Shown here in pieces: positions 436 to 64,000 of a stretch of 64,000 bases of DNA. The stretch's first letter is position 1, and every line of letters starts with the position of its first letter. Source of the stretch: Onchidella celtica (lineage: Eukaryota; Mollusca; Gastropoda; Systellommatophora; Onchidiidae); NCBI GenBank assembly GCA_963931925.1, contig OZ007567.1:91182998-91246997 (forward strand). Direction: 5' to 3'. Made by a program: the position numbers and the translations under genes. The notes beneath the pieces were generated by a model, which saw only the letters and a list, made by a program, of their open reading frames with translations, did not search any database and had not been told where the DNA came from.

Positions 436-3311
436 GAGTAGAGTTCGTCTGTAGGAAGTTATGGTATGGCAATTTTACCAAGCCAATGTTTTATAACAAT
501 GGTGATATTTTTAAAATACCTTTAGATTACTGTAGTAAAAACACAGCTAGGTCAGAAATGTCGTAAAAGGTATTTCTAAACTTAGCCTTGAGAGATTGTG
601 AAATATTTGCCAAGTCACGGACGCTGTGAAAATGGTGCTGGGTCACGGAAGTTCTGAGTCAATTGCAAGACAGCTGAGATTGTGAAAGAATCACTGGATA
701 ACGACGTTTATGGAACTAAAACCAAAGCATTTATGTTCTGGAAAGGATTATAGATTATAAAACATAAAACCTCTCATGCCGAAGGTACCGTGTTCGATCC
801 CCACTCGGCGCAGGTATGTTAAAATGCTTGTTTTTTTTTGGGGGGGGGGGAATTCCTGTCCCCGATCTGGGATCAAGCACCTAGTCTTCTCGGATAAGGA
901 CGAACAATTGGGAGGGCCTGTGTGCACGTTGTGCACGTTAAGGATATCTTGGCAGTTTAAAGTCGAGAAGAGCAGGCCTAACAAGGCCGTTGTCCCGGCT
1001 AAAATTCTAAAACCAACAACAGCGAATCCCTAACCCCCTCCCCCCCCCCCCCCCCCCAGAAACAAGAACAAGAAGATTAAAAGCAAGAAAAGTGAGGTGT
1101 AAATGCCAAGAGCAGCGAACCTCCTAAAATAAAGACCTAAACATAGATTATAAAACATTTGAAGCTCAGCACTGTCTACTCTTGCTACCTTGACATTTTT
1201 ATTTATATCTGTAGTTTAAGACCGTAGTTGTATAATAGGAGGGTGGGCATTTTGGTACACAATGGAAATGAGCTTTAACAAAAACAACGTACAGGACGAA
1301 AACCGTTTATTTTGTTGTTGGTTACTTAAGGTAAGATGGTCATTTGAGACGACATTAGAATTTATTAACTTTCTATTTCATTACAGAAGAGGGATGACAA
1401 TTCACCAAGGAAATTACCTTGTATCACTTTGAGTCCTTGTACTGCAGATGTTGTTTGACTATAGAACAGGGGAGAAAATCCCCTTGGGGAGTTGTCATGG
1501 TGTAACTCTGAGCCCTTGTGGAGATGGTGGCGTTTAATTATAGAAATGATGAGGTCATACATTCAAGAGACAATTACCGTGCTTTGGCGTTAAACGCAGT
1601 GTAAGTAATGTTCCCGGACAGCACAATGGAGGAAAGGACAGACGTCTTTTGTCAGTGAACCTCAGTGACAGATTGGAGGATTGTGTGTGTGTGTGACTGG
1701 AAGAGTTCAGAGAATCCACTTACTATTTCAGTCTCTGAGACTGATTGTGAACATTTCCTTTAACCATGTGGGAAAAGCAGGTTATTTCACAAAGAAAATC
1801 GTGATGTCCATTACAGAATTATGGCAATACTAAAAGCGAGCGGAACTGTCTGGTAGGTTTTCATTGTGGGGGAAAATTTAAGCCACGGATATATGGCTAA
1901 TTGGCCAATTTTTAGAGATTATTGCTGATTAATGCCACGATAATCCTTGTTAAAGACTTCGATTGTCTGGCTCGGTGAATGGTGTCTGGCAGTATGTCTA
2001 TTCTGGACGTGATGCGTTACTTGACAGCATTCGTCAGACTTCAGGGTGATTGGTTTACCTAGCCAGTGTACATCTATTACCACCTTGTCCTCCCACGTTG
2101 TTCAAATTCCCAGCCACACCGGAAAAAATAAAGAAAGAGAGAAAACAAAATTTGACACTTTTTTTGTGCGTGACCTCGTCGCAAATTATCATTGTTCTCA
2201 CTGTCAGGTGTCAGTTGCCAGTGTGGACGTGGCCTACTCATTTTATTTCTGGCTGAGCTGTTTCCTTTCTCCTTAAAGGATATTGCACTTTAATTTCCTT
2301 AAAGTGGGGGTGTGAGTGGATATTTTGTGGGGGGGGGGGTGGTGGGGGAGGGGGGGGGGCTGTGAATATTGTCACTGCTCTACACAAGTTGCATTAGTTA
2401 TTTTTGACACCTTTGAGATATTAGGGAAAAAATTGGGGGGGGGGAGGGGGGGAGGCTGTCATGTCATGTGGTGATTTACGCCATTATGATTCTATGATTG
2501 TACCGAATTATAACATTTTTATACTGGTGCACTTCTTTTTCTATAATATTATCAGATGGCCCTCATACTCAGGAATGCAGTGGCAAATTAAGGTGAGAGG
2601 CATAGGAACGTGGGAAGGATTGGGTCGGGGGGGGGGAGAGCAGGATCACTGTTTTTGATGTTGGAACTGGTACCCTCTGACTTTTATTGTGATTTTGTGA
2701 ATGAAAGCTAAGCTTTCACGGGTACATACATACATGCATACATACATACATACACATGTACATGAAAGCACGCACACCAACATAAGAAAAAAAACACATT
2801 CAAAGACACCCATTGAGATTGAAGATACGAGAAATGGAGGTATATATGCTTGAGAGAGCGTGAAATATTCAGAGGGAAAAACGAAACAAACAAAAACACA
2901 TTAAAAAAAATATATATATGATTTATCGTATGTCCATCTGATTCATATACTTTAATTTCTGAATGGAACCTCTAGACTTTGAATATTTCCAGGTAAGAAC
3001 TCAGGGGAAACAGAAACGTCCAGAAAAACCTTAGCCTTTGCTCACAAGTACTTGTAAGAGGAGTTCCCTCTTTCATACCAAAACTGCGTCCACTATACGG
3101 CTGTGGAATTCCGTGGGAGAAAAGTTTACTAGAGAATATTATCTTTTCCTTAGAAAAAAAAAACGGGGACTAAAATGTTCTCGCTATTGGCAAAGGTCTC
3201 GTTATTAGCAGTGTCGTTATTAGCAGTCTCGTTAAACGTGATGGTCCACTGTACATGTACATTTATGACATGTGATTCAGAGCGAAGCTCCACTGGGGAA
3301 TCTGACAAGAA
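436..3311. other. Non-coding stretch
   Basis: Holds B-box-like GTTCGATCCCC near 794, poly(G) and poly(C) runs at about 841, 1040, 2330, 2350, 2435 and 2627, the (CATA)n at 2722 and a small TCTCGTTATTAGCAGTG duplication near 3200. No gene seen. Confidence 0.5.
2722..2756. repeat. (CATA)n microsatellite
   Basis: ACATACATACATGCATACAT and further CATA units. Confidence 0.85.
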
Positions 3312-3620
3312 TGTTGTTGCAAGTAAGTACGGCCCCTAAGTTTTTTGCGCCAGGGGTACCTATTTTAAGGCCTTTTGTGACTCCACAGCTAGCGAGCTCC
3401 TCCGGAAGTACTCCCAACAACAGCCTTAATTAATTATTCTTTCAGACTTTCTCTTTGTTTTTCTCCTCCTTTTATGGTTGAAAGGGTGGGGGGGGGGGGC
3501 AGGGTTAGGGATTCGATAAGATTTAGGGTTGAGGATAAGGGCGGGGTTAGAGATATATAGGTATGTATAGTACGCGGCCCTAGCGTAAAAACGCTTGGGG
3601 TGCGTACGTACTTCTTACAA
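3312..3620. mobile_element. MITE family B, copy 1
   Basis: About 309 bp with imperfect inverted ends (GTTGTTGCAAGTAAGTACG and the inverse of TAAGAAGTACGTACGCACC). Shared internal blocks are TTAATTAATTATTCTTTCAG, a G run, and GATTTAGGGTTGAGGATAAG. Copies 2 and 3 are at 29955 and 17346. Confidence 0.7.
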
Positions 3621-4599
3621 AAGCCTGTAAATAATAAAATATCTTATCCATTTATGCCATTTATTGAATTTCTGCGCAACACATTTCTTACGGTACATTG
3701 CACACCAATTGGCGCACCTTCAGCAATGGCCGGATTATTGAGAACAATCGTGATGAGTGTTGTGTCATGAACGATCCTTTAACGTCATTAGGAAACTGAT
3801 TGTTATTGCTCGAAATGCTGTGATTCATCTCATTCATTGGGATTCAATACAAATTGCGTTGTATGCATTATTCAGGATTTCCATTCTGCGCACGCGTGTG
3901 TGTGTGCTTATATGTGTGTGTGTGTAGGGTTGCAAATTAATTGTCAAATGTTTTGCTTCCTCAAATACATGTACAAACAAAAAAAAAAAACTTTTGGAGA
4001 GAATCAACAAAATGTGCACGGTCTTCTTGTGTAACATTCAATTAAGATCTAGTCTAAACAGAACGTTTTTTTATCAGACTTGTGGATATTTTGATAAATT
4101 CCGAACCGGACAATAAAGCACGTGGCGATCACGTGATAGGACTGAAGTTTTGTTTGGTTTGTGGCGTTTGCTGAATTATTTTCTTTTTCACTTCTCTGCA
4201 CCTTATACAGAGTTGCCCGCTCCTGAACCACTTTTTAAAGATTACCTTCACTCTCTCTTCTTATTCCTCCTTTATTCCTGCTCCTTCTCTGACTTCTCCC
4301 TTCATTTCCCTCTTCTGTCTCTTTTTGTCCATTTTTCAACGTTCGCGATTCCATCAAATGAACCAAAGGCTGCAGGAATGACCCCCCCCCTCCCATGTCA
4401 TCCTCCCAAATTCGGGTGCTGTCACACACAAAAGAGATGATCACAGACCTGTAATAGCCAAGTATTGATTCATTCCTTGCACCAAAAATCTCGCCATGAA
4501 ATAGTTGATTGTTGAGTTACGGCCTAAGTTCGAGTTTTGCGTTAGTAGTCCTTTCCGATCTTTTTTACATTGCATTAGCCTTTCACGTCCACCACCCCT

Positions 4600-4915
4600 C
4601 CTTCCTTTGCCTCTCTCTTTCTCTCTGTCGCTCCCTCTCTCCCCATCATTGTCTCTCTAGAATTTCATTCTCTTTGCCTCTCTCCGTTTGTGTTTTCCTC
4701 TTTATCTCCGTCTGTCTCTGTATCCCGACTCTGTCTCCCTTTCTCTGTTTCTCTGTCTCCCTTTTTCTCTGTTTCTACCCGTCTCCCCCCCCTCTCTCTC
4801 TCTCTCTCCTTCTTTCTCTGTCTCTGCCTCTCTGTCCGTGTATTTGTCTCCCCCCCCCCCCGCCTCTCTCCGTGTCTCCCCTCCTCGCTTTCTCGATCTC
4901 TCGCTTGGTCTCTCC
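4600..4915. repeat. CT-rich low-complexity tract
   Basis: Long runs of TCTC/CTGTCTC with a C run near 4850. Long open frames on both strands here encode only Ser/Leu/Pro or Arg/Glu strings and are artefacts of composition. Confidence 0.85.
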
Positions 4916-32181: not shown

Positions 32182-32961
32182 CTCTACAGACTCTGGCCAG
32201 GACCCAGTGCAAGTACACTTCTTGCTATGAAGTACACTTTTGAAAATAACACCAAATAATACTTTGACACCTAAAAATTACACAGGTGTTTATTTGTTGA
32301 TTTTTCCCAGAATATTCAACACCCTTCAGCCTCATTTTCATAAAGCAAAACTATTGATTAATATTGAGGCCAACAAAAAGAGACCACAACGGAATGTCAG
32401 ATGTTTGACACCCCACTGGCAATTATGCCAAATTGAGATTGTGTCTTTCTGGTTTAGATCACAGAGTGTGTCATGGCACGTTTGCTGGCGCCACCATTGT
32501 CTAAGGGGTATAAATAGCATAGACGAATTCTTTTTGTCTTTGGGAATGGCGGGAGGGGGATGTGTGTTATGGAAAGCATGAGATAAATTACCTCATGAAA
32601 TCATCAATGTGTTGTGACTTGAAGCTGCAAGTGTAGAAAACTGCTGCATTCCACACACTGTACAGTATACTGAAACAAAATAACAAAGCATTAAGATAAA
32701 AAACAACAACAGCAACAAAACAACAACCGATGAAGGCTCAATGTGGCCGTTGTCGTGCCGGCGCGCCGTTAAACCCTAACTCAAACAAATATAAACGTGT
32801 TCATCAAACACACACACCCCCCCCCCCCTCCACCCTGGTTGTATTTTTGCTTTCTAATGATGAAGTAATTCCTTTTCTAACCTCTAAAATTCTAGTCCAG
32901 TGGTTCTTCATCTAGCAGGAATTTTGGGGATTGGAGGGTAGTGGGGAGGGAGGAGGGAAGG

Positions 32962-33230
32962 GAAGAGGGGTTGAGATGGGAAGAGGGGTTGAGATGGGAA
33001 GAGGGGTTGAGATGGGAAGAGGGGTTGAGATGGGAAGAGGGGTTGAGATGGGAAGAGGGGTTGAGATGGGAAGAGGGGTTGAGATGGGAAGAGGGGTTGA
33101 GATGGGAAGAGGGGTTGAGATGGGAAGAGGGGTTGAGATGGGAAGAGGGGTTGAGATGGGAAGAGGGGTTGAGATGGGAAGAGGGGTTGAGATGGGAAGA
33201 GGGGTTGAGATGGGAAGAGGGGTTGAGATG
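32962..33230. repeat. 18-bp minisatellite, about 15 units
   Basis: The unit GAAGAGGGGTTGAGATGG is repeated almost perfectly head to tail. All G-rich units are on the plus strand. Because 18 is a multiple of three, every frame gives a repetitive peptide (for example GRGVEM), which is not evidence of a gene. Confidence 0.95.
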
Positions 33231-41276: not shown

Positions 41277-41642
41277 AAGAATACAATTCACAAAATCAAT
41301 TGGGATCTTTGAGGGAGCTAATTGTGTATTACTTTACCTTTTTCACAGATACAGACTGCTTCACTAACGTTGGAGATTCGGCCAGAAGATGAACATCCTC
41401 GACTAACTAAATAGATGAAACAGACTGTCCAGATCTCCTCATTCATTGTGTCCTGAACCTTCACATCTCCGGAGACATGGGAGTGGTCTTGAAAACCCAT
41501 TCGACTGTCAAGAGTGGTGGTTAACCTGTCATCAGTGTGTTTGTGATTTTGAATTTAAATAGACAAGCTTCATTCCTGAAAATTTATGTAAACGTACGCT
41601 GTATGCCAGTAAACATTGGGATTGCTAGTCAAATTGTCAAAC

Positions 41643-42827
41643 ATGGCCGCCTACGATATCGACATGAATATGACCGCCATGTTCGAACTTCTGGATGTGC
41701 CCGGGCATTTCAACTTCACTGTTGAAGACTTCATGCGAGTGTATGAGGACTTTCGGGATGATAACCGCTGGTTGTCTAAACAAGCTGAAATTTCCATCAT
41801 CACTGCCTTCATTTTCATTATTGTGTTGGGTTTAATGGGTAACTCTCTGGTATTTTACATCATCGCACGGAAAGGTTGCGGTCAGTCGTCCAGGAATTGG
41901 TATATTCTGAACCTGGCCGGAAGTGATATTCTGACATGCGCAGTGTGTAAACCGCTGACAATTGTCAGGCTCGTGCTGAAAGACTGGGTGCTCGGAGAGA
42001 CGCTGTGTAAACTGGTGCCTTGCCTACAAACGGTGTACGTTTTTGTGTCCACCTTCACCTTAGTGGCCCTGGCAGTTGACAGATACAGTTCCATTATGTA
42101 CAATAACCACCAGGTCAGGTTTAAACCTTGTGTCTACGTTTGTGTCATCTGGATTTGGCTGGTGTCTGTTGCCATATCTGTACCCTTGGCTGTAGTACAC
42201 GACATCGAACACGTGAAAAGCTACAATGGTAACGTGATCTATTCACTCTGTTTAGAACAATGGGAATCGGAAGTTGCCATCACCACCTACACCGTACTCC
42301 TTTTACTTCTTCAGTACTTATCTCCTCTCATAGCCATCATAGTTCTTCATTTTCTCATTGGTCGATTCCTGCGCTCCAGACTACATAGCAATATGGCCGA
42401 TGACGTAAACATTCGGCGAAAAAGACGAAGACATAGAAAAAACATTCTTCTCTTATCTAGTATGGCAGTGTCATTTGGTGTGGCCTGGTTTCCCTTGCAC
42501 TTCATCAGTGCACTGGCCACCATTAACCCTTATGTGTTGACTGGTATTGACTTTCCGCTGGTACACGCTATCTGTTTGATGATCGCCTTCAGCTCTGTAT
42601 GTATTAATCCCCTGATCTACGGGATCCTTAACACAAGCTTCCGGCGTGACCTGGTCAAGCTGTGTAGTGGACACCAGCCTCCTTATTCCATCTACACGGA
42701 CTACACACGGCGGTCGAGCCCTAACCCTGAGGCGCTAGGGCTCATCTCGTCCACGCCACAGGAGATTGGCCTGAGCAGTCCGAATTTACTGAGAGTCAGG
42801 AACGGTAACTGTGTCAGTGCTTTGTGA
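41643..42827 (+). CDS. Class A (rhodopsin-like) neuropeptide G-protein-coupled receptor, single exon
   Basis: A 394-residue seven-helix receptor of the plasma membrane, expected to bind a secreted neuropeptide and signal through G proteins. TM1 is about 50-75 with GN at 66-67. TM2 is about 86-110 with LAGSD instead of the usual LAxAD. Cys122 and Cys203 (LCLEQW) can form the TM3-ECL2 disulfide. DRY is at 146-148 after ALAV. TM5 is about 211-240. A basic loop RRKRRRHRK precedes TM6 with AWFP (the CWxP Cys is replaced by Ala). TM7 ends in NPLIY at 322-326, followed by a helix-8-like stretch and Cys341 as a possible palmitoylation site. N9-M-T and N24-F-T are N-glycosylation sites. The ATG at 41643 has A at -3 and G at +4; an in-frame TTG 27 bases upstream is a poorer start. 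The LCLEQW loop and the LQYLSPLI start of TM5 favour the neuropeptide Y/F, RYamide or related group. The exact ligand cannot be told. Confidence 0.92.
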   Translation: MAAYDIDMNMTAMFELLDVPGHFNFTVEDFMRVYEDFRDDNRWLSKQAEISIITAFIFIIVLGLMGNSLVFYIIARKGCGQSSRNWYILNLAGSDILTCAVCKPLTIVRLVLKDWVLGETLCKLVPCLQTVYVFVSTFTLVALAVDRYSSIMYNNHQVRFKPCVYVCVIWIWLVSVAISVPLAVVHDIEHVKSYNGNVIYSLCLEQWESEVAITTYTVLLLLLQYLSPLIAIIVLHFLIGRFLRSRLHSNMADDVNIRRKRRRHRKNILLLSSMAVSFGVAWFPLHFISALATINPYVLTGIDFPLVHAICLMIAFSSVCINPLIYGILNTSFRRDLVKLCSGHQPPYSIYTDYTRRSSPNPEALGLISSTPQEIGLSSPNLLRVRNGNCVSAL

Positions 42828-55500: not shown

Positions 55501-58500
55501 ATAATGATGTTTTTTGTGTGTGTTTCACTCTCAGGTTCAGAAAGTAATCTACTGTAACTTGAAGAGGGGGAGGAATCTTGTCTGCTATCTTCAGGGCAGA
55601 GAAGTGGTCTTGAGTATAACACTTTATTTCATTTTGCCATGTAAAACAAGTAAAGCATAAACTTATAATCATGTCAGTTGATATTTTACATTGTTCTTGT
55701 ATGACTTGAGTGATATAATGTCACATTCGCAAAAACAATGCTTTACTATAATTCATGAAATCATGAGTCATGAATGCCTGTCATTTCCTAAGAATTTGAT
55801 GGTGTTAGGGTCTTCTCATAATGCACGATGTTGAATTCATTATATTGTTATGACATCTGTCAACATCTGAATATCCAGAATGCTCCAGTAATTGTTTCTT
55901 TCTCTCTGAAGTTCTTAAATTTCCCACAGTACCCAAGAATGTATTTACTCCTTAGCTAGTAGATCCCCATCTGGATAATACAATGTTATTGTTCCATCAG
56001 CCAGCATGAAACTGTTCTACTTTCATTGCTTTCAGGCTGCCAGATACCCGTAAAATACTCTGTGCAATATGTAAAGTAGTCGAGAGCGGAAAAAAAAACC
56101 AAGTGGCCTTACAAATGTACCAGTAAGAGGATTTAATTTCATGGCAACAACCTGCTGCAACACACACTGTCTCTTGGATTACTAAGTTACAACAGTACTT
56201 CAACTTCTCAATATGATCAAAGAACCTGATAATGATCTGGTTTCATTACCGCAAGAGAAACACCCTCTCACCTGACAGAAATGGTAAACACATGATGCAA
56301 ATGCTGCTGATTGGGACAGAAGATTTTGCAAAAAGCCACGAGACACAGAAAAAGTGTCTGCAATTTGCCACACAGACTTCTGATTCCACAGAGACCAGAG
56401 CATCAAAGTCAGATAAAATCTCTTGACTGTCAGTTCACAAATTTTCTGATGACAGAAACCATATTCAGTATAACAGGAACAAAATTAATGGGGGACACAG
56501 GCTAAGAAATTTGATATATCTAGCATATAGTCCCTATTAATCAAACATAATTTCATCTCTACTTAGTTTGAGAAAAAGTGTATCAGCTGAATGATGCAGA
56601 GAATTTACTGATTTAGACCTGTATTTTGAATTTATATTCCTAAACTACCCCAGGTTACTAAAAATGACAGGGGAATACAGCAGTCAATGTACTTCCTCAT
56701 TACAGGCATGTTAAACTGCAAATGGACTCTAAAGAAAAATAGTATAGTACCCTCCTGGTAGATCGTCCAGCAGCCTTTAAACCGACATAACTTTCTTGAA
56801 CACCAATGATTTCCACAGCTTTCAGCTCTCTTTCAGACAATTTGCACAGCTGCCAAAATAAAGATGAACATTAGATCTGCAATGCGCAGGACTGAAAAAC
56901 TTTGTGAGTACATGAAATGCTCAGTTTTTGAATTCATACTTTTATCTAGCACTAGTAATAAAATAAATCTTTATCTCACATACCACATTCTTGCGATACA
57001 TATTATGTAATATTTTGTTCAATGTCTTTTTCTTTAGAACATGTTTTATACTGTTTGTTGTTCATAACCATTTTTTATCCTGACCTTGTATATTTCACCA
57101 TCAACTTACAATGGTCTTTGTACATGTAGTTTGTCATTTCATCACCCATCTCATGTGGTGGCATATCAATAATGTTGGTGATTTTGGGTGGTGACCACTT
57201 TACCATTGCTCATGGCGACATTTACCATGTGAGGTATCCATATCTTTAATAGTTTTGAAGTTATAAACAGAAACATTTTTGCCCCATCCAATAATAACAA
57301 ATGTGACCACGACTTTGAAATGCTATTCCACAAAATCAAAACATTGTTGATATGCAAATATATCAGATGGACAACAAGTTGTTTATACTGTGCCTCAATT
57401 TTTGTTGTTTGTTTACAATTCTTTGTATTTAATTATTTGTTTACACTGTTCTTTGTGTCAAATCCATCATTTGTTTATTTCTTCTGCACTTTAAAATAAC
57501 ATAAATGGACATTCACTGTAAAGTAAAATGAGAATGCATTGAAACAGACTTCGAAATATATGTCTGATATGCTCTAAGTGGAAGGGCCCAAATCTAACAA
57601 GTAACATATGACTGCTTTCTCAGGTGTATCTGACCTCATTGAAATAAATCCTCCAGTCAGGCACTATATCAGTTGATGTATCATATGGAGTCACCAGGAA
57701 AAGTAAATGTAAATGAGAGGCCAGATTCAGGGATTCCTCTGCAGCCTTCAAGTCTTTATACAGCTGGCTACTGTAAGTGTGATCAACTGAGCCTGAAAAA
57801 TGAATCAAACATTCTGATTCCACCAGATTAAGAAATGAAAACAGCCGTTTGATAGCAGGAATGTAAATGGCCTTTCAGTCAAAAGCAGGAAGCTCCCAAA
57901 CTGAAACGACATGTAAATTTAACTACACAGCTATAGTGAGCCACTGGAACACTAACACTTGGAATCCTGAGACAAAAAAGTTGGAAAACAAACAAACAAT
58001 GGCAAACTTACAACCCAGTGATGGGCATGCAGGCACAAATTCTAAGAGAATTATCAAAAAAGTTTCACAGCCAACTGAGGGTTCTCTCAGTATTTGGGAA
58101 AATATTTCTGACTTCTAAGAAAAAAAAACAAAAAAACTTCCATTTGATGAGAACAATGAAAATCTTTAATCTAGAGGTAAATCAAAATAACAGTAAGATA
58201 CAGTTTCCGTTTCAGGTCACCTTACAGTTTTCATTCTAGTTATCCAAGTTCTTCAATATGTGTTTTGAACTTGATTTCAACTCTGTCCAAGCAAATACAT
58301 GTAAAGGTATCCAGATTGCAATGCTGAGATGTACACTCATGGAATGTTAAGTTAACTTTACAGGGTCTTTATTTTGTGTGCATTTATTACTTTCCATTTC
58401 AGTTACAGTGCAGTTTTAGTAACTTTGAATATGTGACAATTACAATCAATGTCTCACCACGGCTGTTAACAAGCAGTAATCTAGTTGCCGAGCGGCCCGG

Positions 58501-61500
58501 TCCGCTCTCCGTATCGTGACCTGGTCACGACCCAAGTCAACGGGGTCAGCCACCTGTGTTCACGGGGGATTCCCTTTCCCGCGGAGCGCTTTTGTTATGT
58601 TGTATTTTTCGAGTAACAGACGCAAACACTGCGCTCAAACTATTTCATCGACTACACTTTAATACATACATGCTAAATAATTGACATATCATACATGCGT
58701 AAACGAAATTATACATCTGTACCAAATACCGTCACAGAGATAAACAGCTACAAAGATGAATAGTAATTTAACAAATGCGTCAGAGGTCATAATTTTTAAA
58801 CTTAAAATTTAACATGATCTCCTCCCACTAGCGAGAAGAAATTAACACACAATAATAAGATTATGTAACATTTCTTTACTTACTTGACTGCATCATTGAG
58901 AAGTTCTTCAATTCAGAGTTATGTAGGATAGAATGTAATGTTAAATTTTCCATAGGCTCAAATTTACGGCGATCCTGCACTTGACATATTACACATAAAA
59001 AATACAGCTGTACACTCCCTTTATGTAGAATTTATTGGTCTACTTCATTTTCCTCCGTTTAATGGGTGGTGCAGAGGCCAAGAGTTCTGGAGAGATTTGC
59101 AAATGCTGCGACTTAATGACAGTTTTTAACTGTGTTTCACAGTTTCGAATGGCTGCCACTCGTCTCTCTAATTTGGCCACAGATGCGTGGATGAGCTCCC
59201 GCAGACCTCCCCTTCCTTTCCATATTCCGAAAAAAACGATTATTTTTTTTAAATAAAAAAATGGGCTGGCGTCTCCAATACGCAATAGACATCTGACCCA
59301 GGTAAGCGGACAGTCAGCTGGCCATCACTTGCTTCTAGAAGTGCCGTGTTCGGAAAACCCCGATTTAAAAAAAAAAAATCAAACATGCTCTGGCGTATTC
59401 AATACACGGCAATAGACGTCTGACCCAGGTAAGCAGGCCTTCTCCATACCACCTTCACTCCCCCACTCGCACTGGGTTATGGCACACAATCGTCATGTAA
59501 CATCTCTGGTGGGCATCAAAGTAAGTAGTGTGACACTTCCCTAGACATGCCAGCGCCTACTAGTCTCGAAACTGTTCTCCGGGAAAACCTCTGAATGGGC
59601 ATTACCGCTATGCAGGTGCCCCCCACGTTACTTCCTACCCAACCCTCCCTACCCCCTAACCGAGTGGGCACGTCCCCCACTGCTCAAAGAAAAATACATA
59701 CAACTGTATCGGCCAAGCCGCACTATGAAAAAGCATAATAATCAGTAATTTTTGGTGTGGTCGGCAAAAACTTGACTTAATTTTTTTTTCTCTTTTTTTC
59801 CTGGAAACGGGGAGATTTCAAAGGAAAATGGGGAGGGCGGGGGTTTGTCATAAAAACAGGGAGACTTGGGAGGTCTGGCTCCCCACCCCCTCCTGCTTGC
59901 TCACCATGAAAAGCCATGCCAAATCCATATTTCTGTATCCAAGGGACACAGTGTTCATCCAGAATGTGTTGTTTGGGAATGACTTTGTTCTTGAAAAGTT
60001 TCCTGTATGTTGCCATGTACCTTGTATTGCATGCTTGAATATGTGGGATGGTGTCTAGTGCCACTGGTTTTGCGTGCGATATTTGATTGTGAACGTCCTT
60101 GTATGTGTCATTTAAATGATTGAAATTTTCCCTCAAAACAAGTGCTGTTTCTAATATGCTTTGTTTGTTTGTGCGTTCCTGTGTTCTCTTGACAACGTAT
60201 GAAGTAAGGTCTGTATTATTTTGTATGCTTTCCTTTTCCGAAGTTTTTGTTTTTTTGTTAGTTCTTCCACCACATGTTCTGCACAGTTCATGAAGATATT
60301 TAATATGCGAGTCTTCTGTGTGACCTTTCATTCTGAATACTGTTATTCAGATAAAATAAAGAAAATCTACCTTCACAATGATGTAAAAAAATAGCGTGAT
60401 GGCGTCTTCAGCAACACACTTGCCAATGCCGGTCAAGTTTTAAAAAATCATATAAAATCACACGTGTACGGCTCAAACGTCAAACGTGCACATTTTATTG
60501 AGTATCCATTTTCCGACTGGAATAACAAATAACTGTAGAAAACATGGGCTGAACTGCCGAGATATTTAAATCCAAATTAATATAATAGTGAAAACTGATT
60601 TTCGAATGAATAGAAACATACACTGAATAAATCCTTCGAAATAATTAACACATATAAACTCAGATGGGGGAAAGTTATATCGGCCTGTCGGTAAAAGGTC
60701 AGGCTTTAAAATGGCATCTCGGATGGGGGGTCTAGCATTGTTTGATCGGGAGATATCGGCACGCAAAGATATGCAGAAATTAATAGAATCGCGTTACACA
60801 GGCAAGGCCAGTGAGCGCCTCGCCGGTAGTGACCGTGGCAGATAGATATTCACGGGGGGTCAGCTGGAGGCTACAGCAGGCAACTAAAGTAGCGCTTTCA
60901 GTGTCTTATTAACAGCCGTGTCACAAGAAAAGTGAGCTAGCAAATTTCATACATATGCAAATAAAGTGACAAAAATTATATGCAAAACAAAATAATTTGA
61001 CAAATCTGATAAGGATTCTTGGTAAGATCTCCTTGACATTTCAGAGCTCCATAAAAATTAGTAAATTACCTGTAAATAATTTCAAAATGATTATTTGGCA
61101 CAGCATTTCACTATAAATAATACTGTACATTTCAAAACAATGGAATGATATTTGGAAATTCAAAAACAAATTGAAATGCACACACATATTAAATATTTTC
61201 CATACTCGCTGCCATCCACAAACAAGGGAGTATTCTTACAGCCAATCCCCTTTTCATTTTACCTTTGAATGTGGCTTTTCCCAGACAAGATAACTGTAGT
61301 GTGAATGCCAAATTGGAGTTGTCTTCCTCTGTGGATTTAGTCTGTACGACCAGGCCATGCTGCATAAGCTGTTCCAGACTGTCTTTTGTCATAGACATCA
61401 CATCAATATTCAAGGCTGGCGCATGGATCTGAAGCAATGACCTCTTCAACAGTTCAAAGGCTGACTCAGTGGATGTGACCAACTGAAATTAAAACAAAAA

Positions 61501-62883
61501 GGAGAAGTGGTCATGGCATCAGAGTAGAAAGATGATGGTATAGCTTTAAAGAGCAGGGGTACTTTCATAATTTCCTACATTTAATTCTACATTAATGGTT
61601 ATTATAAGGTTAAAACTGTCACGTTTCCCTTATAAATTCTTTAAATTGCTTTAAAAGTACCTGACTGATCATATTTTTTTGTTTGTCCGTCAATCAGGGA
61701 TAATTATGAAATATTGAAACCTAGCTCTTTTGACTCTCTGCTTTGCCAGAGTCAGTGCATTTTTTGTTCCAGCAGGCTTATTTTTCTTGACTTACCTGAG
61801 GGGAGAGAGCATGTGATAGAAGGAGTGAGAATGTGATGGGAAGAGAGAGAGAGGGGGGTGGGGAGAGGGAGTGTGGGAGAGAGAGGAATGAGTTTTTATT
61901 ACTTGTAAAGCGCATTGAGCATTTATTGGAAATGCGCTATATAAATGTAATTTATTATTATTATTACCACAATGGTCTAATCTATGGGTGGTCTCAGAGC
62001 TGTAAGGTTTGTAACATTCTTTTCTGCAGGCCCGCTTGTCTTCTGCTGTGTTATGAAATGTGATATGTGCGTTCCTATTCACCCTACATAAATATTTTTC
62101 TCCAAGGCAGAATATTTGTGCCAAGAACAGCATTTTCATACATGAAAATATTCTCTGATATAGCACTTAGCAGCTTTACCTTCAGTCCTATGGCAGACAG
62201 CAACAAGGATCGAACCCCTTTTCCTTCATTGTAAGCCAAGCTGCTGTGACAGTAATTTTTCGGGCCACTTAGCATCTCTTTGACCTGAGATTGATTCAAG
62301 CAGGAATTTAAAACAATTTCAGTACACTGCATTTTTCCCTGGTCATCGTTACGAGTTTAAGATTTCTTTTCATAGAAATGCAGGATTTCTCCATAGCACT
62401 TCTGGGAACTTGATGTAGAACTTTATGTACATCCAAGTCTTAAATCATCACTTATTCATCAACAAAAATAAATAAGGTAAGATTTAAAAAAAAAGGAAAA
62501 CAAGTGAAAATTGTTTATTAAATACGACATTTTAGTCTAAGGAGTGATTTTACACTGCAGAAAAGATTCCAAGACTGCCAGGAGTGCCTGATGACTTATC
62601 TACTATCTCTGTCACATGATAAATTTGTGTGACAAAGGCTAAACCAGGTCATCTGGGGTGAAATTCTGACTGCCAAATCATTCTTTAGTGCATGTTAAAT
62701 GTGTGGATGTTTATTCACCTGGCAGCTGCAAAGTTACTTACTTTCATCCTGTCCTGTGTCTTGACAATGAGGAAACTTTCACCTGAAGAGTCAATGCCAG
62801 CTCTTCCTGCTCTCCCTGTCATCTGTTTGTACTGACTGTACTGCATAAGGCTCATGCCCACATAGGGACTCTTTAGAATCACC
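52508..62883 (-). CDS. HELQ: HELQ-type DNA helicase, C-terminal part (nine exons, 5' end outside window)
   Basis: HELQ is a superfamily 2, 3'-to-5' ATP-dependent DNA helicase of the Hel308/POLQ group that acts at stalled forks and in RAD51-linked repair in the nucleus (family knowledge). Nine minus-strand exons join in phase: 62742-62883, 62180-62284, 61263-61482, 57635-57792, 56751-56849, 56272-56421, 55361-55474, 54880-55014 and 52508-52588. Together they encode about 400 residues ending in TGA. Visible in order are helicase motif VI ([10 protein letters not shown]), the winged-helix start ([14 protein letters not shown]), [12 protein letters not shown]...[16 protein letters not shown]...CVYHFC, ELEEFW...LIPLMEI, the helix-hairpin-helix block ([11 protein letters not shown]...[14 protein letters not shown]) and a short helical tail. 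The RAGRAGID form of motif VI and the tail favour HELQ over POLQ. Every junction has AG acceptor and GT donor, and no exon is broken, so the gene looks functional. The ATPase motifs I-V lie beyond 64000. The introns carry several transposons. Confidence 0.93.
52752..53781. mobile_element. 1.03-kb inverted-repeat DNA element flanked by TA
   Basis: The left end GGTAGTCCAAACTG and the right end CAGTTTGGGCTACC are inverted copies, flanked by TA at 52750-52751 and 53782-53783. A second internal inverted pair is TTTGACCCCTCAT (about 52983) and ATGAGGGGTCAAA (about 53578). No transposase reading frame is visible. It is probably a non-autonomous TA-targeting element in the last HELQ intron. Confidence 0.7.
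53783..54000. repeat. Decayed repeat plus GT/poly(G) tract
   Basis: Begins TATTTGTATAACTCTTTAATCCCATGTGGG, of the type seen at retroelement ends. It passes into (GGT)n and a run of about 20 G at 53931-53949. No coding potential. Confidence 0.4.
54174..54612 (+). mobile_element. Foldback mariner-like element with transposase C-terminal fragment
   Basis: Bounded by TA at 54172-54173 and 54613-54614. The ends are long inverted copies (about 120 bp each): CAGAGTGTCCCAGAAG at the left and the complement of CAGGGTGTCCCAGAAG at the right, continuing through the AATGCTCAA-TGAGCACCCTCTGC stretch. Between about 54300 and 54530 the plus strand encodes [20 protein letters not shown] and further residues to EHLL, the C-terminal part of a Tc1/mariner-superfamily DDE transposase with the [11 protein letters not shown] motif. 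The left arm is an inverted duplicate of the right end including the last codons, so this is a non-autonomous foldback derivative. Confidence 0.85.
54880..55014 (-). CDS. HELQ: HELQ exon, helix-hairpin-helix domain
   Basis: Forty-five codons starting [19 protein letters not shown] and ending [14 protein letters not shown]. This is the DNA-binding helix-hairpin-helix region at the C terminus of HELQ. CAG acceptor, AAG|GTAGGA donor. Confidence 0.93.
55361..55474 (-). CDS. HELQ: HELQ exon, helical domain
   Basis: Thirty-eight codons reading [20 protein letters not shown] and then [21 protein letters not shown] acceptor, TTG|GTAAGT donor, phase 0. The FCQ|ELEEFW join reproduces a continuous conserved block. 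Confidence 0.93.
56272..56421 (-). CDS. HELQ: HELQ exon, helical domain
   Basis: Fifty codons from [12 protein letters not shown] through [20 protein letters not shown] to CVYHFCQ. The acceptor AAG|AGA is the only choice near the start that keeps frame with the neighbours. The donor is CAG|GTGAGA. Confidence 0.9.
56751..56849 (-). CDS. HELQ: HELQ exon, helical domain
   Basis: Thirty-three codons reading [20 protein letters not shown] and then [13 protein letters not shown]. Borders are GGCAG acceptor and AGG|GTACTA donor, phase 0 at both ends. It aligns with the HELQ stretch LSPAEQ...GVSESFIGKKASG as I know the family. Confidence 0.87.
57161..57355. mobile_element. Short inverted-repeat element (MITE-like)
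   Basis: The left end GCATATCAATAATGTTGG and the inverse of the right end GCATATCAACAATGTTTT pair over about 25 bases, including TGATTTTG. No coding content. It lies in the HELQ intron between 56849 and 57635. Confidence 0.5.
57635..57792 (-). CDS. HELQ: HELQ exon, ratchet-domain start
   Basis: The exon completes the split Gly codon and reads [20 protein letters not shown], then [12 protein letters not shown] and [10 protein letters not shown]. The TPYD and PDW-IYF blocks are diagnostic of the helical ratchet domain. It is separated from the upstream exon by a 3.47-kb intron that contains the 2.46-kb transposon at 58458-60920. Confidence 0.9.
59040..59216 (-). pseudogene. C-terminal exon of the same transposon protein
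   Basis: After an AG acceptor (GGGGAG|GT) the minus strand reads [20 protein letters not shown] and ends [10 protein letters not shown] with a stop. The IHxxxxxLERR...Lys/Arg-rich tail is what follows HGEQGGE in the related transposon proteins as I remember them. It therefore likely continues the 59777-60331 frame across a ~0.6-kb intron. Confidence 0.5.
59777..60331 (-). pseudogene. N-RAG-TP/Chapaev-like transposon protein, internally shortened
   Basis: The reading frame begins [20 protein letters not shown]; the LCRTCGGR stretch resembles the first zinc-binding CxxC block of the RAG1 N-terminal region. After a short Lys/Glu-rich linker comes a conserved C-terminal-like block: [20 protein letters not shown], then [20 protein letters not shown] and HGEQ. 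This H-x4-H...PW...GFG...HGEQ signature is familiar from uncharacterised transposon-borne proteins of cnidarians and molluscs. The residues after HGEQ (Pro/Gly-rich) look like read-through into an intron, with a plausible G|GTGGGG donor right after HGEQAGG. The zinc-finger-rich and catalytic middle expected in a full protein is absent, so this copy is probably defective. Family assignment rests on motif memory, not on an alignment. Confidence 0.6.
61263..61482 (-). CDS. HELQ: HELQ exon, winged-helix domain
   Basis: The exon starts [17 protein letters not shown] and ends LGKATFKG, with the final Gly codon split as G|GY. The LGKATFKG block corresponds to the conserved HELQ LGRASFKG-like turn. 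The acceptor is ATTTCAG after a T/A-rich tract. Confidence 0.9.
61910..61975 (+). repeat. Retroelement 3'-tail-like sequence with ATT microsatellite
   Basis: TTGTAAAGCGCATTGAGC and GCGCTATATAAATGTAAT followed by (ATT)n. This is a tail type widely seen at the 3' ends of metazoan SINE/LINE copies. It lies in a HELQ intron. A related start, CTTGTAAAGCGCTCAAAC, is at 39812. Confidence 0.5.
62180..62284 (-). CDS. HELQ: HELQ exon, start of winged-helix domain
   Basis: Thirty-five codons between a CAG acceptor and the donor AAG|GTAAAG. It encodes [16 protein letters not shown] and [14 protein letters not shown], the segment that follows the RecA2 core in HELQ. Both borders are phase 0. Confidence 0.9.
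62742..62883 (-). CDS. HELQ: HELQ exon with helicase motif VI
   Basis: The exon opens with one base of a split Arg codon after a CCAG acceptor and reads VILKSPYVG, then [20 protein letters not shown]. This is the end of the second RecA domain, with the arginine fingers of motif VI. It ends in RMK before GTAAGT. The preceding exon, expected to carry motif V, is not visible between 62884 and 64000. Confidence 0.93.
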
Positions 62884-63280
62884 CTGGTTATGGATATATC
62901 ACATTTCACATATTAAGAATTTTATCTGTACCAAATCTAGAGTGCAATCATTGTGACTCTCAAGAGAAAATTAATTTAAATATTTAGATTTCAAGATGAG
63001 AGAGCTTAAATTCTTAAGTAAGATGAAAATATCTGAAAATCTGCCCCATTTTAAATCAAGCATCACAGACAGACCCAACTTGGACAACCATTGTAACTCT
63101 ATTGCAGTCTACAGATGTCTTTTATATTTACTTAAATGAAATTATAAACTTTCTAAACTACACTCTGTTTACAATGGTCTGGAGAAGAGAATAATGAATT
63201 TTATCTCAATATTACAAATCACCAGTTGCTACTGAAAGACAGTTGAGCCAAAATGCAACATCAGCATAATATATTGTAAC

Positions 63281-64000
63281 TGTCACGAGTGGAGTGAGCG
63301 ATAGTTAATAATTACGGGGGGAAAGGAAGAGAGTAAAATTAACGCACGTAGACAAGTAAGGGGAAAGCGTGCATGTGAGTGGGGGGTCTGAATGAGGCGA
63401 AAGCGCTGTATTACTATCACTGCAAGTTAGAAGGTCCTACTGAACGGACGCAAGAGAAAGCCCAGCGGGCGAACATAAGGGGAGCCGTCGGAAGACGGAT
63501 GAGAGTGTTTTTTCCAGTGATGACTGGTAGGTAGAACGTTGATTGATAATTATGATTGATGTATTATATTATATTCGTCTATTACCATGATGTAAATAAG
63601 TATATGTGAGGAATGTGGAAGTCCTTGATATTGGATATAGCAATGTGCGCCATGAGCGATAGATGAAAGTGAGTTCATGGATTTGTAGCACGAGTGAGTA
63701 TTGTGTATGTCACGAGTGGAGTGAGCGATGGTTAATAATTACGGGGGGAAAGGAGGAGAGTAAAATTAACGCACGGAGACAGGGAAGAAAAGTCGTGCAT
63801 GTCATGAGTGGGGGGTCTGAAGGAGGCGAAAGCGCTGTATAACTATCACTGCAAGTTAGAAGGTCCTAGGGAGCGGATCTGTGAATAATAGCCCATCGGG
63901 CAGACATAAAGGGGGCAGTCGAGAAGACTAGTGAGAGTCTTTCCAGTTATGACTGGTATGTAGAACGTTGATTGATTATTATGATTGATGTATTATATTA
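63281..64000. repeat. 427-bp tandem satellite (1.7 units visible)
   Basis: A unit starting TGTCACGAGTGGAGTGAGCG at 63281 repeats at 63708 and continues to the window edge. The second unit differs by substitutions and small indels. Each unit contains short self-complementary pieces (for example CCAGTGATGACTGG, and GTCG-AGAAG-ACT in unit two). No reading frame is conserved. Confidence 0.85.

Follow-up and report, generated by a model that had tools for sequence, protein, structure and literature searches.

A stretch of 64,000 nucleotides from the genome of the gastropod Onchidella celtica (contig OZ007567.1, positions 91,182,998 to 91,246,997; hereafter the window) was found to carry a transposable element of 2463 bp, at 58458-60920, within an intron of a helicase gene of the Hel308/HELQ type. 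This element is very probably an internally deleted, non-autonomous cut-and-paste transposon of the Chapaev type, which would be mobilised in trans and whose two unequal ends would each be gripped at two points by the transposase. The anatomy of the element, the presence of an intact relative, the 4-bp target site duplications (TSDs) and an offset between the two ends that is common to seven families are demonstrated below. The element is a new addition to a known group, Chapaev.

Anatomy of the window copy and its relatives in the genome

The two ends of the element are inverted repeats of 16 nt, of which 15/16 positions are complementary and the first 12 identical. They lie at 58458-58473 on the plus strand (the 3' side of the open reading frame (ORF), or short-spacer end) and at 60905-60920 on the minus strand (the ORF-5' side, or long-spacer end), and all other sites in the window differ from the terminal 12-mer by at least 3 bases. 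The ends have the CA..TG form with inverted repeats, as in Chapaev, and are flanked on the plus strand by direct copies of TCAC at 58454-58457 and 60921-60924. The first-pass annotation, which was made from the letters of the window, had placed the inverted ends correctly to the base and had recognised the TCAC duplication. Its view that the protein had lost its middle while the ends stayed clean was also borne out, as 2288 bp are missing in comparison with the intact relative L059, and the ends are intact. A palindrome with perfect arms (CGTGACC-T-GGTCACG, 7+1+7) was noticed at 58515-58529, just inside the short end.

The genome searched was an assembly of 1.14 Gb in 43 contigs. On searching it at the DNA level with the element, at least 75 matches were obtained; since the best 40 of 626 candidates were scored, copy counts are lower bounds. 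Among the matches listed, three copies cover the full span 1-2463, and many others match 1-1409 together with 1687-2463, representing a shorter derivative without part of the coding piece. Every one of the distinct two-ended copies fetched (27/27, the window copy and L059 included) was observed to have its own 4-bp duplication. The ends were located without requiring a duplication, and the count derives from 28 rows, two of which (L002 and L038) are one copy fetched twice; an end is missing from each of L004, L028 and the part of L060 that was retrieved, and these were left out. The same two ends on 27 distinct copies, each with its own 4-bp duplication, show that the element is not a product of chance. 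The target duplication of Chapaev is 4 bp. Mean identity among 22 of the 23 two-ended short copies was 97.7% (231 pairs, 96.2-99.8%), L024 having dropped out of the identity table.

The search for full-length copies with the same ends, suggested at the first pass, led to the intact relative L059, which was found by a protein search of the genome in which the best 150 of 1158 candidates were scored. It measures 4138 bp (556-4693 of its stretch), has the same ends and the TSD TTTC/TTTC, and contains one frame of 969 amino acids (aa), 964 when counted from the first Met; no other frame in that stretch is longer than 137 aa. An open frame of 991 aa is present in at least 14 sister copies in the genome (L061, L064 and sisters), and this 991-aa family looks recently active.

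The window copy is 92-97% identical to L059 in four shared blocks. Its coding remains run on the minus strand, beginning with an N-terminal piece at 60224-60331 that contains LCRTCGGR, the RAG1-N-like zinc start, and is frameshifted by 2 bp after about residue 25. This piece meets the deletion junction at 60220-60223, where 2288 bp of L059 are gone and TTTG stands on both sides; the loss takes both predicted catalytic aspartates. Beyond the junction lies the C-terminal region of the transposase (59896-60223, minus strand, 97% identical to L059) with an HX4H motif (HILDEH) and GEQ, and the C-terminal tail (...KRRKMK, stop) follows at 59043-59200 on the minus strand, within a block that is 95% identical to L059. 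A further 63 bp of L059 are absent near 59000. The 189-aa frame of the window is composite on account of the deletion joint and the 2-bp shift relative to L059: some 25 genuine N-terminal residues lead into a stretch that is out of frame, after which the C-terminal block follows.

Between these last two coding parts, separating HGEQ from GGELIHAS, lies an insert of 695 bp (59201-59895). Close to its two ends lies a 10-bp inverted repeat, CAGACCTCCC, and its borders are marked by a repeated GCTCCC, owing to which it looks like a small nested transposon. Most of the insert is also found in shorter copies of the element. It would thus represent one insert hitchhiking inside another transposon, and it contains two internal direct repeats, 83% alike, at 59257-59307 and 59381-59434.

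Spacing of the inner block at the two ends

Two features recur at both ends of each element: a CAC box on the outside and, further in, a block built around a YAGT(T) core. In the window copy, the inner block TAGTTGCC is present at 58482-58489 (plus strand) and at 60879-60886 (minus strand), and its core begins at base 25 from the left, ORF-3' end and at base 35 from the right, ORF-5' end; L059, which belongs to the same family (A), has these positions too. Taken by themselves, the two ends of the window copy make a weak case, since a common TAGTTGCC is a 5-7% event by local alignment, and the offset therefore rested on other families. Core starts of 25 and 35 were likewise found in families B (L061), C (L062), D (L063), F (L069) and G (L072), and of 26 and 37 in family E (L065, L066). 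The core lies deeper at the ORF-5' end in all seven families with both ends mapped, by 10 bp in six and by 11 bp in one. The long end is the ORF-5' side in every family, the side of F being taken from L067, which has the 5' end of that family; in family G the core at the 5' (long) end reads TAGTC.

For families B-E and G, the ends were located through their inverted repeats and 4-bp duplications, with the inner block ignored. Families B-G have 4-bp duplications as well, although in their case the duplication served in finding the ends. The 5' end of F and that of L075 were first picked by the inner block. L067 gave no ends in a simple scan; a scan for block spacing suggested its 5' end, which was confirmed by copies. 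L068 belongs to family C and was not counted again. The offset was already known from A-D when families E, F and G came under study. The letters of the inner block common to both ends number 19/19 in B, 15/15 in C and 17/17 in E. In an unbiased test of 51 shifts the best shift was +10 in A-D and F, and +11 in E; none of 2000 shuffles reached the observed score in B, C or E, and one of 5000 did so for C in a separate test. Agreement of A-F on +10/+11 has a nominal null probability of 3e-7 if the families are independent, which by common descent they are not fully.

The spacing was also followed across the genome. The pattern CACGGCTGTT-N4..34-TAGTTGCC has 392 exact matches in the genome, against 0 for the reversed control. 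Of these, 100 were listed, all copies of the A and B types, with spans of 32 bp (51 matches), 42 bp (48) and 41 bp (1). Neighbouring convergent ends less than 12 kb apart formed 41 pairs among the 100 listed (82/100 ends), and in every pair a span of 32 was combined with one of 42. The long-end pattern of family E gave a span of 42 bases in 35/35 matches. With the pattern of family F, 17 matches were obtained: 13 represent its long end, at a single length, and the remaining four look like chance (control 15).

Several results limit the case for the offset. Within single families the inner block is not always significant, the observed score being reached by 3% of shuffles in family A, by 6% in D and by 35% in F. 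In family G three shifts (0, +4 and +10) score equally, and 1234 of 2000 shuffles are as good; because of this tie, what family G contributes is the position of its core. Of the last four loci, two (L073 and L074) yielded no ends, and from L075 a 5' end only was obtained, in a scan that required this spacing. The 392 genomic matches come for the most part from recent copies of two families and are not independent.

Based on these observations, we propose the following mechanism. The element, a copy unable to make a whole transposase, inserted into the helicase intron with a 4-bp duplication. Most likely it was moved in trans by the complete enzyme that elements such as L059 encode, in which a RAG1-N-like zinc region is followed by a predicted DDE core. 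This enzyme probably grips each end twice, at the CAC-terminal box and at the inner YAGT(T) block. Since the inner block shifts by about one helical turn, the same face of the helix would be kept, and short ends may on this account be joined preferentially to long ones. The one-turn difference might then enable the transposase to assemble productively on a short end paired with a long one, by analogy with the 12- and 23-signals of V(D)J recombination.

It is a real possibility, which we rate somewhat short of an even chance, that the identity of the element is right and that the offset is passively inherited from one ancestral indel, with no rule of short/long pairing. All the families share common descent, and as copies inherit their spacing, the 41/41 short/long pairs are expected without any rule. 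On the other hand, drift should alter the length of a spacer, and the offset is still 10-11 bp in seven families, even though the proteins of B-F are 33-65% identical to that of L059 and the spacers look unrelated; family G matches the family proteins at 29-42% in tblastn pieces. A constant length combined with unrelated spacer letters points to a constraint, but not to a pairing rule.

Transposase, RAG1-like N-terminus and host gene

The Chapaev affinity proposed at the first pass holds: the protein of L059 matches the Pfam domain DUF1280 with 54.5 bits (cut-off 25), over a stretch that the window copy does not have. The same domain is matched by 6/6 of the family proteins in our alignment A2 (six proteins, L059-L067), and 118 matches at E up to 0.001 were obtained genome-wide. 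DUF1280 denotes Chapaev transposases, which are placed in one clade with RAG1 (PMC3985635). Residues D508, D578, C597, C600, H887 and H892 (numbered from the Met of L059) are invariant in all six A2 proteins, and GEQ (E909) is kept in 5/5 of those whose slice extends there (5 of 6). We predict from their positions that a DDE core is formed by D508, D578, the CxxC pair 597/600, HX4H 887/892 and E909. These invariant residues fit the pattern of the group, in which C(2)C and H(3-4)H lie between the second D and E (PMC12730594); target duplications of the wider group are of 2 to 5 bp (PMC12730594). The LCRTCGGR start and the GFG...HGEQ block, which had been reported together for the enclosed protein, are both present in the minus-strand frame 59777-60346. 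The block is no mark of a RAG1 N-terminus, being the C-terminal HX4H pair and the likely catalytic Glu.

The N-terminus has eight invariant positions in A2 (C17, C20, C39, H62, C67, C70, C112 and C115). When the A2 profile was compared with PDB, the top three matches were RAG1 chains (21wb_A, E 1.2e-5; 6oem residues 99-182, E 2.9e-4; 9jpu, E 3.0e-4), and the fourth reached only E 0.099. The Pfam domain RAG1_imp_bd had 48 matches at E up to 1 genome-wide, the best of which (29.5 bits against a cut-off of 23.3) was in the 991-aa sister family. A zinc domain, 'Chapa', is common to Chapaev and RAG1 (PMC4411706), and the RAG1-like N-terminus found here confirms known biology. Some findings tell against the likeness to RAG1. 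RAG1_imp_bd is below cut-off in the window fragment alone (E 0.014) and gives E 8.5 for L059; what carries the RAG1 signal is the profile of the family together with the sisters of 991 aa, and all three PDB matches represent a single protein. The zf-AD (ZAD) domain matches 4/6 A2 proteins (best E 4.5e-4), as against 2/6 for RAG1_imp_bd (best 6.1e-6), so that this finger could be part of a broader class. The claim of a RAG1-N-like protein thus stands for the family (profile E 1.2e-5; 29.5 bits) and is not significant for the window fragment by itself. It may be remarked that the RAG1 N-terminal finger and ZAD may form one class. As regards the core, alignment of A2 with the mouse RAG1 core by hhalign was not significant (E 0.52), and no sequence-level link of the core to RAG1 is claimed. 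The RAG1 core domain PF12940 had no match in L059 or in the genome, where the control was likewise silent.

These data also bear on whether the element is an N-RAG-TP in the original sense, encoding a RAG1-N-like protein only and no transposase core, which we consider very unlikely. The start of the protein is RAG1-N-like, and the Aplysia element is described as consisting wholly of RAG1 N-terminal-like sequence (PMC8355894); but L059, with the same ends, has a complete Chapaev-type transposase in one frame, and the window copy retains the transposase C-terminus. What survives of the first-pass comparison with N-RAG-TP is the RAG1-N-like start and not a lone RAG1 N-terminus, as the parent is a whole transposase. 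Even less credible is a relic of a RAG-like transposon (RAG1L-RAG2L, ProtoRAG/Transib). The RAG1-N-like zinc region, the CAC ends and the unequal spacing of the ends would all suit it; however, the TSD is of 4 bp in 27/27 copies against 5 bp in protostome RAGL (PMC7204232), L059 matches DUF1280 and not PF12940, and the latter finds no match in the genome, though its control is silent too. Chance coding beside unrelated intron repeats, which the poor scores of the window fragment alone might suggest, is refuted by the full-length relative and by the many copies with their own duplications. The Chapaev-type transposon is the explanation that we retain.

For the window protein by itself, the comparison with PDB gave only a match at chance level (E 1.4), NCBIfam gave no match, and of nine pattern matches in viral contigs none was confirmed. 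An Rfam search of the window gave no match.

The host helicase gene lies on the minus strand, as do the coding remains of the element. A host exon at about 57629-57763 (minus strand) matches POLQ_helical with 30.6 bits (cut-off 27), and an exon with helicase motifs at 62718-62912 (minus strand) has its best PDB matches in Hel308 (E 1.9e-5) and Pol theta (7e-5), the query being two window pieces joined. Matches below cut-off were HTH_61 at 61.2-61.5 kb (E 0.057) and HHH_5 at 54.7-55.1 kb (E 0.0012). The domain order of the gene fits HELQ. The flanking exons support the first-pass location in a HELQ intron as far as a helicase gene of the Hel308/HELQ type is concerned; the POLQ helicase and HELQ are not told apart. 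Elsewhere in the window, a rhodopsin-type G protein-coupled receptor is encoded at 41613-42827 in a single open frame of 404 aa (Pfam 7tm_1, 144 bits), and a tandem array at 32960-33230 consists of 15.1 copies of an 18-bp unit with 100% matches. Minus-strand frames at 63286-63563 and 63713-63992 encode near-identical peptides (ALILLSSFPPVIIN..., ...GPSNLQ) about 430 bp apart, representing a local duplication.

Comparison with known systems

Chapaev belongs to the EnSpm/CACTA-Mirage-Chapaev-Transib group, and Repbase files it under EnSpm (PMC4455052). The element resembles Chapaev in its DUF1280 transposase, CA..TG ends, short duplications, zinc N-terminus and C(2)C and H(3-4)H motifs. It differs in that the window copy is defective and in that the one-turn offset of the inner block is not described for Chapaev in the excerpts available. 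No report of offset ends for Chapaev was found in the literature searched; Repbase Reports and most subscription papers lie outside it and may hold one. The N-RAG-TP of Aplysia, compared by its description only, is similar in having a RAG1-N-like protein in a transposon (PMC8355894, PMC2996935), and it differs in that the finger described here forms the beginning of a complete transposase.

The signals of V(D)J recombination and the ends of ProtoRAG offer a close parallel in layout, since they, too, combine a CAC-terminal box with an inner block whose spacing differs between the two ends. Their spacers are of 12 and 23 bp in V(D)J and of 27 and 31 bp in ProtoRAG (PMC8289069). The inner sequences differ from those found here, and the offset is 10-11 bp here as against 11 in the recombination signal sequences and 4 in ProtoRAG; the duplication is of 4 bp and not 5 bp. 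A RAG2-like gene was looked for only among the frames of L059. The ends are symmetric in most Transib families (PMC8289069), which bears on the origin of the 12/23 rule. It is possible, though less likely than not, that Chapaev transposases, with their RAG1-type zinc N-terminus, also use pairs of short and long ends a helical turn apart, and hence that a rule of the 12/23 kind was in use outside the Transib/RAG lineage; it might then be ancestral to both, before the gain of RAG2, or might have arisen twice. The Chapaev family described here joins two traits of V(D)J recombination in a non-RAG transposon, namely a zinc N-terminus like that of RAG1 and a difference in spacing of about one turn of the helix between its two ends.

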